NCBI RefSeq assembly: GCF_900499075.1
Contig: NZ_UIHC01000004.1
Location: 1-64,000 of the forward strand
DNA from: Roseinatronobacter ekhonensis
Lineage (GTDB): Bacteria; Pseudomonadota; Alphaproteobacteria; Rhodobacterales; Rhodobacteraceae
Length of the DNA stretch: 64,000 nucleotides
Direction: 5' to 3'
In this document: one piece after another, positions 30,109 to 35,585 of the stretch
Layout of the letters: every line of letters starts with the position of its first letter
Position numbering within the stretch: position 1 is the first letter of the stretch
The notes under the pieces: generated by a model
What the model saw: the letters and a program-made list of their open reading frames with translations, nothing else
The model's database searches: none
Told to the model about the DNA's origin: nothing
Program-made: the position numbers and the translations under genes

Positions 30109-32199
30109 ATGGCCACGCGGCCCGAAACGTTATTTCCGCTTTTTGGGGCGCTGGACGGGCTGGACGGGATCGGCCCCAAGACCGCGCGCAATTTCGAAGC
30201 GCTGGACATCGCAACCCCGCGCGATCTTTTGTTCCACTTGCCGCAGGGCGTGATCGACCGGCGCAGGCGCAACACACTGATGGGATTAGATTTTCCGGCT
30301 ATTGCCACGGTAGAGGTGCAGGTCGGCACACATCATGCGCCACGCACGCGCGGGCGGCCCTACCGCATATTTGTGCGCGACGCAGAGATGGAATTCCAAC
30401 TCGTGTTCTTTCACGCGCGCGGCGACTACCTGCAAAAGTTGCTGCCCACAGGTCAGCGGCGCGTGGTGTCGGGCAAGGTCGAACTGTTCGACGGGATCGC
30501 ACAGATGGTGCATCCCGACCATGTCTTGCGCGCGCAAGAGGCCGAGGCCCTGCCGCAATTTGAAGCGGTGCACGCGCTCTGCGCGGGTGTGTCGCAAAAG
30601 CTGATCTCGCGCGCTATTGGCAGTGCGCTCGAACGGCTGCCCGCGCTGGAGGATTGGATCGACCCCGCGCTGAAGGCCCGAAAGGGCTGGCCAGATTGGG
30701 CGGATGCAGTGCGCACGGCCCATGCGCCGCAAGGTCTGGGTGATCTTGCGTCAGAAGCGCCTGCGCGCGCCCGGCTGGCCTATGACGAGGTCTTCGCTCA
30801 TCAACTGACGCTGGCGCTAGCGCGGGCGACAGCGCGCCGCAAACCCGGACGGGTGACGCAGGGCACAGGGGTTTTGCAGCGGCAGGTGCTGGCATCTTTG
30901 GGGTTTGCACCCACTGGCGCGCAAACCCGCGCGGTGCAAGAGATTGCCGCCGATATGGCCAGCCCGCGCCGCATGAACCGGCTGTTGCAGGGCGATGTGG
31001 GCGCGGGCAAAACGCTGGTCGCAATGCTTTCGCTGCTGATCGCCAACGAGGCGGCCGGGCAGGGCGTGTTGATGGCCCCGACTGAGATCCTTGCGCGTCA
31101 GCATCTGGAAAGCCTGACGCCCCTGGCGCAGGCGGCGGGCGTGCGGCTGGAGCTGTTGACCGGTCGCGACAAAGGCGGCGAGCGGGCGACAAAACTGGCC
31201 GATCTGGCGGCGGGGCGGATCGACATTCTTGTCGGCACCCATGCAGTGTTCCAGAAAGGCGTCGAGTTTGCCGATCTGCGGCTTGCGGTAGTGGATGAGC
31301 AGCACCGTTTCGGCGTCGCGCAGCGCGCCGCATTGGCAGCGAAAGGCGAGGGGGCGGATGTGCTGGTCATGACCGCCACTCCCATTCCGCGGTCGCTATC
31401 CTTGGCGCAATACGGCGATATGGATGTGGCGGTGCTGGACGAAAAACCGCCCGGTCGCAAGCCGATCACCACCGCGCTTGTGGCATCGGCGCGGCTGGAC
31501 GAGGTGGTGGCCAAACTGCGCCACGCCATTGCAGAGGGGCGGCAGGCCTATTGGGTCTGCCCGCTGGTCGAGGATAGCGAGGTCAGCACCCTGACCGCTG
31601 CGCAAACCCGCTTCGAACACCTGCGCGCGGCATTCGGTGAAAATGCGGTCGGGCTGGTGCATGGGCAACTGCCGCCCGCCGAGAAAGACGCCGCAATGGC
31701 GCGCTTTGCCGCCGGGCAGACGCAGCTTCTGGTCGCCACAACGGTCATCGAAGTGGGCGTGAACGTGCCCAATGCGACCATCATGGTGATCGAGCGCGCC
31801 GAGAGTTTCGGGCTGGCGCAATTGCACCAGTTGCGGGGGCGCGTGGGGCGCGGGGGGGATGCCTCGACCTGTTTGCTGATTTATGAGCCGCCGCTGGGAG
31901 AGACCGCCGCGCGCCGCTTGAAACTATTGCGCGACACTGAAGACGGGTTTCGCATTGCCGAAGAAGACATGGCCATTCGCGGCGCGGGCGACCTGATCGG
32001 CACGGCGCAATCGGGACTTCCGCGCTTTCGCGTGGCCGATCTGGAACGACAGGCCGCGCTGATGGCGCTGGCCCAGTCGGATGCGCGCAAGCTGCTGCAT
32101 GACGACCCGCAACTGGAAACCCCGCGCGGTCGTGCCGCCCGTGTTGCGCTCTGGCTGATGGAGCAGGACAAGGCGATCCAATATCTGTCAATCGGCTAA
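30109..32199 (+). CDS. recG: ATP-dependent DNA helicase RecG
   Basis: Branch-migration helicase that remodels stalled forks and Holliday junctions, 696 residues. The N-terminal wedge/OB domain is at about 1-180 (LDGLDGIGPKTARNFEALDI). The helicase core has Walker A in LLQGDVGAGKTLVAML, motif II DEQH in VVDEQHRFGVAQ, motif III in VMTATPIPRSL and motif VI in QLRGRVGRGGDAS. It follows ligA by one base, an operon of two repair genes. Right behind its stop lies a LexA box. Confidence 0.95.
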   Translation: MATRPETLFPLFGALDGLDGIGPKTARNFEALDIATPRDLLFHLPQGVIDRRRRNTLMGLDFPAIATVEVQVGTHHAPRTRGRPYRIFVRDAEMEFQLVFFHARGDYLQKLLPTGQRRVVSGKVELFDGIAQMVHPDHVLRAQEAEALPQFEAVHALCAGVSQKLISRAIGSALERLPALEDWIDPALKARKGWPDWADAVRTAHAPQGLGDLASEAPARARLAYDEVFAHQLTLALARATARRKPGRVTQGTGVLQRQVLASLGFAPTGAQTRAVQEIAADMASPRRMNRLLQGDVGAGKTLVAMLSLLIANEAAGQGVLMAPTEILARQHLESLTPLAQAAGVRLELLTGRDKGGERATKLADLAAGRIDILVGTHAVFQKGVEFADLRLAVVDEQHRFGVAQRAALAAKGEGADVLVMTATPIPRSLSLAQYGDMDVAVLDEKPPGRKPITTALVASARLDEVVAKLRHAIAEGRQAYWVCPLVEDSEVSTLTAAQTRFEHLRAAFGENAVGLVHGQLPPAEKDAAMARFAAGQTQLLVATTVIEVGVNVPNATIMVIERAESFGLAQLHQLRGRVGRGGDASTCLLIYEPPLGETAARRLKLLRDTEDGFRIAEEDMAIRGAGDLIGTAQSGLPRFRVADLERQAALMALAQSDARKLLHDDPQLETPRGRAARVALWLMEQDKAIQYLSIG

Positions 32200-32200
32200 T

Positions 32201-32215
32201 GTTCCAATTTGGTTC
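32201..32215 (+). promoter_or_regulatory. LexA (SOS) box, perfect alphaproteobacterial consensus
   Basis: GTTC-N7-GTTC at 32201-32215, one base after the recG stop. This is the LexA site known from Rhodobacter, Caulobacter and rhizobia. TTGACT at 32216-32221 directly follows it and could be a -35 element, so LexA binding would block the promoter. The downstream gene encodes a 37-residue membrane peptide. Confidence 0.7.
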
Positions 32216-32272
32216 TTGACTAAAAGTGGAACAAATGTGAACATAAGGTTAACAGAGCAAAGGAGGTAGCCC

Positions 32273-32386
32273 ATGTCATCCCTGCAAAGCAAAGCCGGAC
32301 GCGCGATGTTTCTGCAAGACCTGTGCGGCGGCGTGTCGCTTGTCGTGCTGGTGGTTGCCGCCTTTCATCTGCCGCTCATTGCCTGA
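32273..32386 (+). CDS. SOS-box-controlled small membrane peptide (37 residues), candidate SidA-like division inhibitor
   Basis: A peptide of 37 residues, with a polar N-terminus (MSSLQSKAGRAMFLQDLCGG) and one hydrophobic helix (residues about 20-37, VSLVVLVVAAFHLPLIA). AGGAGG lies seven bases before the ATG, a strong ribosome site. A LexA box with a -35-like element is 57 bases upstream, and a hairpin with a T tract follows the stop. In Caulobacter, the 29-residue SOS-induced inner-membrane peptide SidA blocks division. The layout here is similar, but no sequence match is claimed; the product could have another SOS role. Confidence 0.6.
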   Translation: MSSLQSKAGRAMFLQDLCGGVSLVVLVVAAFHLPLIA

Positions 32387-32428
32387 GCCTGAGGGCGTCT
32401 GACTGCGCGCCCGACCTGACCTGACTTT

Positions 32429-32468
32429 CGCCGCCATGCGCCCCCACGCATGCGCGGCGATTTTTTAT
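32429..32468 (+). terminator. Rho-independent-type terminator behind the small peptide gene
   Basis: CGCCGCCATGCG pairs with CGCATGCGCGGCG across a short C-rich loop (one bulge) and is followed by ATTTTTTA. It ends the SOS peptide transcript before trmFO. Confidence 0.65.
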
Positions 32469-32529
32469 CCGGCCATTTGCCAAAGCTCTTTGCTGTGGTT
32501 ATCTGGGGCGAAGCAGGAAAGGGTAGCGC

Positions 32530-33885
32530 ATGGACAAGGTTCTGAACATCGTCGGTGGTGGCATGGCGGGCGCAGAGGCCGCGTGGCAGGCTGCCAATCT
32601 GGGTGTGGACGTGGTCATCCACGAAATGCGCCCCGATGTGGGCACGTTCGCGCATCAGACGCAGCATTTGGCGGAGATGGTCTGTTCCAACTCTTTCCGC
32701 TCGGATGATGACGAGAATAATGCGGTTGGGCTGCTGCATTGGGAAATGCGCGCCGCTGGCGGGTTGATCATGGAAATGGCCGACGCGCATGCCCTGCCTG
32801 CGGGCGGGGCTTTGGCCGTCGACCGCGACGCATTTGCAGCCGATGTAACTGCGCGCCTGCTGGCCCATCCGCGCATTCGCGTACAGCGCGGCGAAGTTAC
32901 AGCGCTGCCCGATCAGGGTCAGTGGATTTTCGCCACCGGGCCGCTGACATCGGGCGCCTTGGGGCAGGCCATCGCGGCGGAAACCGGCGCAGAGGCGCTC
33001 GCGTTCTTCGACGCCATCGCTCCCATCGTTTATTTCGACAGCATCGACATGTCGAAAGCGTGGTTCCAGTCACGCTACGACAAGGGAGAGACCGAGGAAC
33101 AACGCCGCGCCTATCTGAACTGTCCGATGGACCGTGATCAGTATGAGGCGTTTATCGACGCGCTGCTTGCGGCGGAAAAGACTGAATTCCACGAGGGTGA
33201 AACCGCCGGTTATTTCGACGGCTGCCTGCCGATCGAGGTCATGGCCGAACGGGGCCGCGAGACATTGCGCCATGGTCCGATGAAACCCGTCGGGCTAACC
33301 AACCCGCATATGCCGGACGTGAAACCCTACGCCGTGGTGCAATTGCGCCGCGACAATGCGCTTGGCACCTTGTACAATATCGTGGGGTTCCAGACCAAGA
33401 TGAAGTATGGCGCGCAAGCCTCTGTTTTCAAGTCAATTCCGGGTCTAGAAGAGGCGTCTTTTGCGCGCCTTGGCGGCATTCACCGCAACACATTTCTGAA
33501 TTCACCGACCCTGCTGGATGACCAGTTGCGCTTGCGCAAGCGTCCGAACCTACGGTTTGCGGGGCAGATAACGGGGGTCGAAGGATATGTCGAATCTGCC
33601 GCGATGGGCCTGCTTGCCGGGCGCATGGCGGCGGCGGACTTGCTGGGCAGCCATGTGCCCGCCCCGCCCGGTGACACCGCGATGGGGGCGCTGATCCACC
33701 ACATTACCGGGGGCGCAGAGGCCAAGACTTTTCAGCCGATGAACGTGAATTTCGGGCTGTTCCCTCCGATAGAGGCGCGCGGTGGGCGGCGCGGACGGCG
33801 CGAACGCTACAAGGCGTATACTGACCGGGCCAAGGCCACGTTCCGCAACTGGCTGGCCGCGCAGGCGCGCCCCGATGCCGCCTGA
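32530..33885 (+). CDS. trmFO: Folate-dependent tRNA (uracil-54-C5) methyltransferase TrmFO
   Basis: FAD and methylene-tetrahydrofolate enzyme that makes ribothymidine at position 54 of tRNA, 451 residues. The FAD-binding N-terminus is [21 protein letters not shown], followed by [14 protein letters not shown] and [23 protein letters not shown]. The C-terminal family segment is [21 protein letters not shown]. The gene overlaps gluQ by eleven bases. Confidence 0.95.
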
Positions 33886-34738: not shown

Positions 34739-35078
34739 TTTCCACTTCGGCCCCGTCCCGCAGGGCGGTGTAAAAGCACGATCGCCGGTTGGTATGGCAG
34801 GCCGGTCCGGTCTGGTCCACCAGCACCAGCAGGCAGTCGCGGTCGCAATCCACGCGCATGTCGACCAGATGCTGCACATGGCCCGAACTTTCGCCCTTGA
34901 CCCAGAACGCCTGCCGCGACCGGGACCAATAGGTTACACGGCGCGTCTGAAGTGTGCGCGCGACCGCGTCGGCGTTCATCCACGCCATCATCAGCACATC
35001 GCCGTTCTCGGCGTCCTGCGCGATGGCCGGAATCAGCCCGCGCTCATCATATCGTAGGGTTTGCGGATCGAAATTCAT
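34710..35078 (-). CDS. hisI: Phosphoribosyl-AMP cyclohydrolase
   Basis: Third-step enzyme of histidine synthesis, zinc and magnesium dependent, 122 residues. The family core is LMMAWMNADAVARTL, then YWSRSRQAFWVKGESSGH, VDCDRDCLLVLVDQTG and ACHTNRRSCFYTAL, containing the conserved metal ligands. It is the cyclohydrolase only, not fused to HisE. It stands alone here; hisB and hisH lie 13 kb away and other his genes are not in the window. Confidence 0.95.
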   Translation of the reverse strand: MNFDPQTLRYDERGLIPAIAQDAENGDVLMMAWMNADAVARTLQTRRVTYWSRSRQAFWVKGESSGHVQHLVDMRVDCDRDCLLVLVDQTGPACHTNRRSCFYTALRDGAEVEIMAPVADPD

Positions 35079-35132
35079 GGGCTATGTCCTCTTGCAGACA
35101 GCAATACCCTGCCACGCCGCCAAGGAAAAGCC

Positions 35133-35585
35133 ATGAGCGACAACGCCGAGATGATGAAGCTCTATTCCGCCCGCATTCTGGCGCTTGCGGCCGATATTCC
35201 CCATCAGGGGCGGATGGATGCCCCGCAGACCAGCGTCAAGCGCCGTTCGCCGCTATGCGGGTCGACCGTCACTGTCGATCTGGACATGGCGGGTGGTCGG
35301 ATATCCGGTTTTGCGCAAGAGGTGAAAGCCTGTGCGCTGGGGCAGGCTGCCGCCGCGATCCTAGGGCAGGTCGTGATCGGGCGCAGTGCGGAGGAACTTG
35401 CGACCGCGCGCGCGCAACTCCACAGCATGCTGACAGCCGATGGTCCCGTGCCCGATGCCCCGTTCGACGGGTATGAAGTGCTTTTGCCCGCGCGCGAGTA
35501 TCGCAACCGCCACGCGTCGATCCTGCTCGCGCTGGATGCGACGCTGGAGGCCAGCCAGACCCTGACCCAAGACGCCCCGACCTGA
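35133..35585 (+). CDS. Iron-sulfur cluster assembly scaffold (SufU/IscU N-domain type)
   Basis: A 150-residue NifU/IscU-fold protein. The first ligand-type cysteine is in SPLCGSTVTVDLD (near 44), the second in VKACALGQAAAAILG (near 73). At the usual third cysteine position the sequence is NRHASILLALDA, with histidine in place of cysteine. Cluster-building proteins of this type hold transient Fe-S clusters. The ATG at 35133 has AAGGA eleven bases upstream. It is divergent from hisI and convergent with pgm, with a hairpin repeat between. Confidence 0.75.
   Translation: MSDNAEMMKLYSARILALAADIPHQGRMDAPQTSVKRRSPLCGSTVTVDLDMAGGRISGFAQEVKACALGQAAAAILGQVVIGRSAEELATARAQLHSMLTADGPVPDAPFDGYEVLLPAREYRNRHASILLALDATLEASQTLTQDAPT

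Follow-up and report, generated by a model that had tools for sequence, protein, structure and literature searches.

The window, by which is meant the whole stretch of DNA that was analysed (64 kb), carried a short reading frame between recG and a trmFO-like gene. The features of this locus were as follows:

30109..32199, forward strand: recG, the upstream neighbour, ending before the operator (from the list of open reading frames; Pfam DEAD, Helicase_C and RecG_dom3_C)
32201..32215, forward strand: LexA box 1, GTTCCAATTTGGTTC, a perfect GTTC-N7-GTTC that starts at the second base past the recG stop
32216..32221, forward strand: -35-like TTGACT adjoining box 1 (from the sequence; the family consensus has TTtAC directly after the box)
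32239..32253, reverse strand: second LexA-like box (box 2), in inverted orientation with one mismatch to the consensus, reading GAACATAAGGTTAAC on the forward strand, over the inferred -10
32239..32244, forward strand: putative -10, GAACAT, weak and 17 bp past the -35, placed by spacing only
32261..32266, forward strand: Shine-Dalgarno sequence AGGAGG (from the sequence)
32273..32386, forward strand: gene for a 37-residue peptide, ATG at 32273 and stop at 32384-32386, with one predicted transmembrane helix in a predicted N-in/C-out orientation
32428..32467, forward strand: intrinsic terminator, comprising a hairpin (32428-32460) and a T-run (T6, 32462-32467)
32530..33885, forward strand: trmFO-like (GidA family) gene, the downstream neighbour (from the list of open reading frames; Pfam)

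The first-pass annotation of this DNA had described a gene behind recG, with a GTTC-N7-GTTC box right behind the recG stop, an AGGAGG ahead of the ATG, a frame of 37 residues and a T-tract hairpin after it. All of these were recovered: Pfam identified RecG upstream, the last base of its TAA stop codon being at 32199; the box, the AGGAGG and the frame were present at the positions given above; and the hairpin folded at -23.7 kcal/mol (z = -5.9) ahead of six T residues, while being absent from the list produced by a simple terminator scan. One detail was corrected, in that TTGACT had been said to overlap the end of the box and in fact adjoins it. A simple promoter scan listed no sigma-70-like promoter near the peptide gene, and for this reason the -10 is treated as putative throughout.

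Taken alone, the box was rejected as evidence, because its frequency in the window was at chance level (1 match to GTTC-N7-GTTC against 1.66 expected). Across the 3.9-Mb genome there were 78 matches, compared with 172 for a reversed control pattern. It is conservation, and not the frequency of the box, that settles the reality of the observation.

Within the genus, a match to the peptide was found in 34 of 36 genomes, some of these being weak (E up to 0.12), while 1 of 24 genomes from other families of the class gave a match, also weak (E = 0.8). The 30 best loci from the same genus all had recG just upstream, a perfect box and the peptide, and trmFO followed the peptide in 28 of them. The peptide frame is under purifying selection. 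Over the last 32 codons, dN/dS was 0.225 in the clade of the window (10 pairs) and 0.294 in the rest of the genus (262 of 300 pairs, the 38 saturated or near-identical pairs being left out). Frame controls, for which all pairs were included, gave pS/pN of 0.352/0.100 (window clade) and 0.566/0.254 (rest of genus) in the true frame; the corresponding values in the two other forward frames were 0.195/0.162 and 0.018/0.222 (window clade), and 0.307/0.350 and 0.204/0.382 (rest of genus), such that pN was near or above pS in both. Given these dN/dS values, set against pN/pS in the other frames, the peptide frame is very probably translated.

A first look across the Rhodobacteraceae concerned 31 loci chosen by the peptide itself; recG was present in 29, and the box followed recG in each. 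Since loci should not be chosen by the peptide, the family survey was anchored on the C-terminus of RecG, which was searched for in 149 genomes from 149 genera, taking one locus from each. There was a recG match in 144 genomes and none in the other five; the recG stop was placed in 138 of the 144 loci and not located in six. One locus (L190) consisted of only 465 bases. In 121 of the 138 loci, no more than 200 bp separated the recG stop from a perfect GTTC-N7-GTTC, against 0.48 loci expected from single-letter shuffles. The peptide was found behind recG in 127 loci, box and peptide together in 118, and neither in eight. The three loci with a box and no profile-scored peptide (L230, L255 and L262) each had a divergent peptide by eye, that of L262 being also scored, as L379. 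Nine loci had the peptide without a perfect box within 200 bp; of these, two had a perfect box further out, three had a box one base off, two had half-sites with six-base spacing only and two had neither. Eight of the nine nonetheless had an inverted second box. Six-base spacing of the box 1 half-sites, with the second box kept, was seen in two Zongyanglinia loci (L326 and L328).

When the position of recG was ignored, 131 of 144 stretches contained a peptide scoring at least 15, and 10 of the remaining 13 contained no box at all. Two of the loci, L264 (G149) and L265 (G092), came from A+T-rich genomes with a poor match to the end of recG and no recognizable peptide; these genomes possibly represent misplaced or reduced lineages. 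Four copies of the peptide were situated away from recG (L033, L060, L375 and L376), and each had its own perfect box, 75-104 bp ahead of the matched residues. This retention of the box by relocated copies, and the co-occurrence seen in the survey, show that box and peptide behave as one unit. In L375 (G202) the peptide was about 4 kb from recG and the adjoining gene resembled, by eye, that at 35061-35585 of the window; the move in this genus may therefore have been a local rearrangement.

A profile (A3) was made from 90 members, i.e., 86 of the 95 non-redundant survey peptides plus four from the genus, leaving out nine survey peptides that were divergent or of odd length. It matched (E <= 0.001) 360 of 394 family genomes, among which are those that supplied the 86 survey members, and 320 of the 347 of good quality; 34 genomes had no match. 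A count by eye found a single match in all but 10 of the 360 genomes. Profile A1, built from the genus only, had proved too narrow for the family, matching 330 of the 394 genomes at E <= 1 and many of these only weakly, and was replaced by A3. Among 385 genomes sampled across the class, five matched at E <= 0.001 and all were Rhodobacteraceae; outside the family no match reached this threshold, the best having E = 0.005. The 24 weak matches outside the family (E = 0.005-0.05) were rejected as remote relatives, none having a perfect box within 300 bp. Titles were considered for the best 80 of 104 relatives, and these belonged to Ruegeria pomeroyi, Phaeobacter, Leisingera, Sulfitobacter, Roseovarius, Tritonibacter, other Rhodobacteraceae and a few bins whose names go no further than order or class; among these best 80 of 104, recG lay within 500 bp upstream in 79, a perfect box in 78 and the second box in all 80. 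Searches with one sequence, and then with two alignments, found no relatives on plasmids, phages or viral contigs, and a mobile origin of the peptide was rejected on this basis. The comparison with relatives that had been proposed in the first-pass annotation was thus carried out, with box and peptide jointly present in 118 of 138 family loci; a lack of conservation of the frame or the box, named there as the outcome that would count against the gene, was looked for, and both were found to be conserved.

The second, inverted LexA-like box is a new observation, made here from sequence alignments, and stands at a near-fixed distance over the putative -10. Aligned on box 1, 110 loci gave the family consensus ttGTTC.CaaATGTTCt.AaAAAGTTCTTtACa, followed by 14 less conserved bases and TGAGAACAAAggggCAACA. 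An inverted GAAC-N7-nAAC was present in 115 of the 118 family loci and was exactly 23 bp past box 1 in 101 of the 115, where single-letter shuffles led us to expect 1.2 loci. The second box was perfect in 12 of the 115 and one base off in the others, always at the same position. It was also present in all 30 genus loci, in 26 of them at 23 bp. In this genome, no second box was seen within about 90 bp of the boxes at the lexA, polymerase, uvrD-type and photolyase genes. In 91 of the 118 family loci (among L122-L265), box 1 was preceded at six-base spacing by an additional GTTC, which forms, with box 1, a run of three direct half-sites. LexA bound to both boxes would be expected to cover the -35 and the putative -10, and a double lock of this kind suits a product that is harmful to the growing cell. 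With two opposed LexA boxes kept almost constant, this SOS promoter offers a natural, clear-cut example of tight locking.

The lexA gene of this genome (PF01726, PF00717) has its start about 35 bp past a box, GTTCTAACTCTGTTC, that represents the same kind of operator. We examined 44 of the 78 genomic boxes (30 listed loci, plus 14 with A+T-rich spacers chosen by eye). Twelve were near the start of a reading frame of at least 70 codons, and four of these preceded DNA-repair or SOS genes, namely lexA, an impB/mucB/samB-family polymerase, a uvrD-type gene and a photolyase gene; the others near such starts may be due to chance. The perfect LexA-type boxes at the called starts of the photolyase gene (L387, G000:C135:24100-25200) and the UvrD-type helicase gene (L384, G000:C122:55400-56500) make both possible further members of the SOS response. 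An identical box, GTTCACTATATGTTC, occurred at two places (G000:C114:67039-67053 and G000:C135:24655-24669). GTTC-N7-GTTC is the published LexA motif of Caulobacter, according to excerpts of PMC12700426. A lexA gene was found in all 20 of the peptide-bearing genomes that we chose, and in 13 of 20 profile-negative genomes (the 20 listed of 34); among the seven lacking it, three had a completeness below 90%. Two profile-negative genomes that do carry lexA (G117 and G189) nevertheless showed, on inspection by eye, a box and a divergent peptide. LexA-type control, as had been proposed for the peptide gene, is strongly supported by a box that is conserved, that stays with the peptide and that is of the same kind as the one at lexA in this genome.

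The 127 survey peptides were 37-47 residues long (40 residues in 99) and all began with ATG, counts that lean on a start-codon score favouring ATG, a Shine-Dalgarno sequence and a length near 40. All 127 contained a 19-residue segment with KD of at least 1.6, i.e., a predicted helix, which agrees with the single hydrophobic helix claimed for, and predicted in, the peptide of the window. The general arrangement was a basic N-terminal stretch, a near-invariant Asp (89 of 90 members) and Gly (89 of 90), the hydrophobic helix and a C-terminal motif resembling His-Leu-Pro (His in 49, Leu in 76 and Pro in 79 of 90 members); the 37-residue member in the window is a shorter variant of the family. A test for a conserved face on the helix did not reach significance (p = 0.24). 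The positive-inside rule relates basic residues to the cytoplasmic side, and since Lys or Arg occurred in the last 22 residues of only one peptide in 127, the N-terminus is predicted to be cytoplasmic (N-in/C-out). The 37-residue product had no Pfam match at E <= 1, and membership of a Pfam or NCBIfam family was rejected because no model fitted, the 90 members giving one stray, weak match per library. The suggestion of a candidate new family was borne out in this respect, and the SOS peptide gene is considered real, family-wide and outside known families.

By analogy with Caulobacter SidA, it is moderately likely that the peptide is a family-wide SOS checkpoint, inhibiting division in the SidA manner. 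LexA on the two boxes, covering the -35 and -10, would keep the peptide gene tightly off. RecA stimulates LexA cleavage, and such cleavage would release the gene. The peptide would then insert into the membrane N-in/C-out, where its helix may act on late divisome membrane proteins (FtsW/FtsI/FtsN), as SidA does, and septal synthesis would be held back until LexA returns.

Several other roles could be envisaged for a locus of this kind. If the operator served a non-coding RNA or trmFO, the reading frame would be incidental, and the shortness of the frame, like the chance-level occurrence of the box alone in the window, would fit; this is made highly improbable by purifying selection in the frame, the similar length of the peptide throughout (37-47 residues), the terminator before trmFO and the relocated copies, which keep box and frame together. 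DinQ and TisB of Escherichia coli are also LexA-repressed membrane peptides with a single helix, and a peptide of their type would leave the divisome alone and instead lower membrane potential or alter membrane-bound DNA processes, leading to dormancy or slower growth. The two kinds are alike in size class, in having one helix, in LexA control and in carrying two operators at the promoter; excerpts of PMC3567139 describe two LexA operators over the dinQ promoter, so that a division inhibitor cannot be told from other products by tight repression. Antisense RNAs (agrA/agrB) and a processed leader belong to dinQ, whereas none were seen in the tested flanks of the present gene. There, the longest exact complementarity to the leader was 7 nt, direct or inverted repeats of at least 12 were absent from 32190-32540 and no Rfam match came near its gathering score, so that a cis antisense antitoxin was rejected for these flanks. 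The leader, taken from an inferred transcript start, was not specially structured (z = +0.95 against shuffles for 55 nt around the leader and start) and has a strong Shine-Dalgarno sequence. The gene also occupies a place that is mostly fixed and mostly single-copy, and no plasmid or phage relatives were found, unlike many mobile toxin genes. A DinQ/TisB-like role, although the chief alternative to division inhibition, is accordingly thought unlikely.

The apparent restriction of the peptide to Rhodobacteraceae would suit a regulator of some other SOS membrane machine, such as the CckA/CtrA phosphorelay or gene transfer agent (GTA) output. LexA links of this sort have been reported in Rhodobacter capsulatus and predicted in Dinoroseobacter shibae: excerpts of PMC6473078 cite a link of LexA to cckA in the former, and give in silico LexA sites at the GTA cluster of the latter. 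Nothing in the locus points to CckA/CtrA or GTA, however, and the neighbours of relocated copies look unrelated by eye, making this role quite improbable. We also regard it as distinctly unlikely that the new family is a family-wide SOS brake with a double-operator lock whose target is other than FtsW/FtsI/FtsN, for example CckA/CtrA-GTA. Of these readings, SidA-like inhibition of division is preferred.

The peptide would bear on the way in which division is halted after DNA damage in Rhodobacteraceae (Ruegeria, Phaeobacter, Sulfitobacter and other marine genera), a subject on which no paper was found in the open, non-subscription literature. The peptide was not mentioned in the excerpts of PMC4211646, PMC6473078, PMC13384398, PMC1839093, PMC12700426 and PMC3567139. 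With one short gene, below the usual annotation length and present in most of the genera sampled, mostly in one place, the question becomes testable.

Among known inhibitors of division, SulA of E. coli is LexA-controlled, as is predicted for the present gene, but it is soluble and targets FtsZ, in contrast to the present predicted membrane peptide. In this genome the best match to SulA (PF03846) reached 12.7 bits against a cut-off of 23.1 and had an internal stop; the peptide, which had no Pfam match of its own, was rejected as SulA, and the earlier statement that no SulA is evident holds for this genome. YneA and SosA of Firmicutes are also SOS-induced division inhibitors, YneA being reported to act on FtsW in excerpts of PMC13396833, but their hosts are Gram-positive and they are likened to the present peptide by description only. 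DidA of Caulobacter crescentus is, according to excerpts of PMC4211646, another small membrane inhibitor of division induced by DNA damage, but it is SOS-independent and induced by DriD, whereas the present peptide gene has LexA boxes. SidA, from the same species, differs in length (29 residues against about 40), and its likeness is one of description. Outside Rhodobacteraceae, the profile gave no match at E <= 0.001 in the 385 genomes of the class. The sidA gene, which we take to be CC1927, and the present gene are probably at different genomic places, since recG of Caulobacter is CC1437. The latter designation is from an excerpt of PMC1839093. Excerpts of PMC4211646 describe SidA as a 29-residue, SOS-induced inner-membrane protein acting on FtsW, and those of PMC12700426 and PMC13384398 state that delta-lexA cells form filaments in a sidA-dependent manner. 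As portrayed in such excerpts, SidA shares with the present peptide its very small size, SOS-type control, an inner-membrane location (here predicted), a GTTC-N7-GTTC operator and an alphaproteobacterial host.
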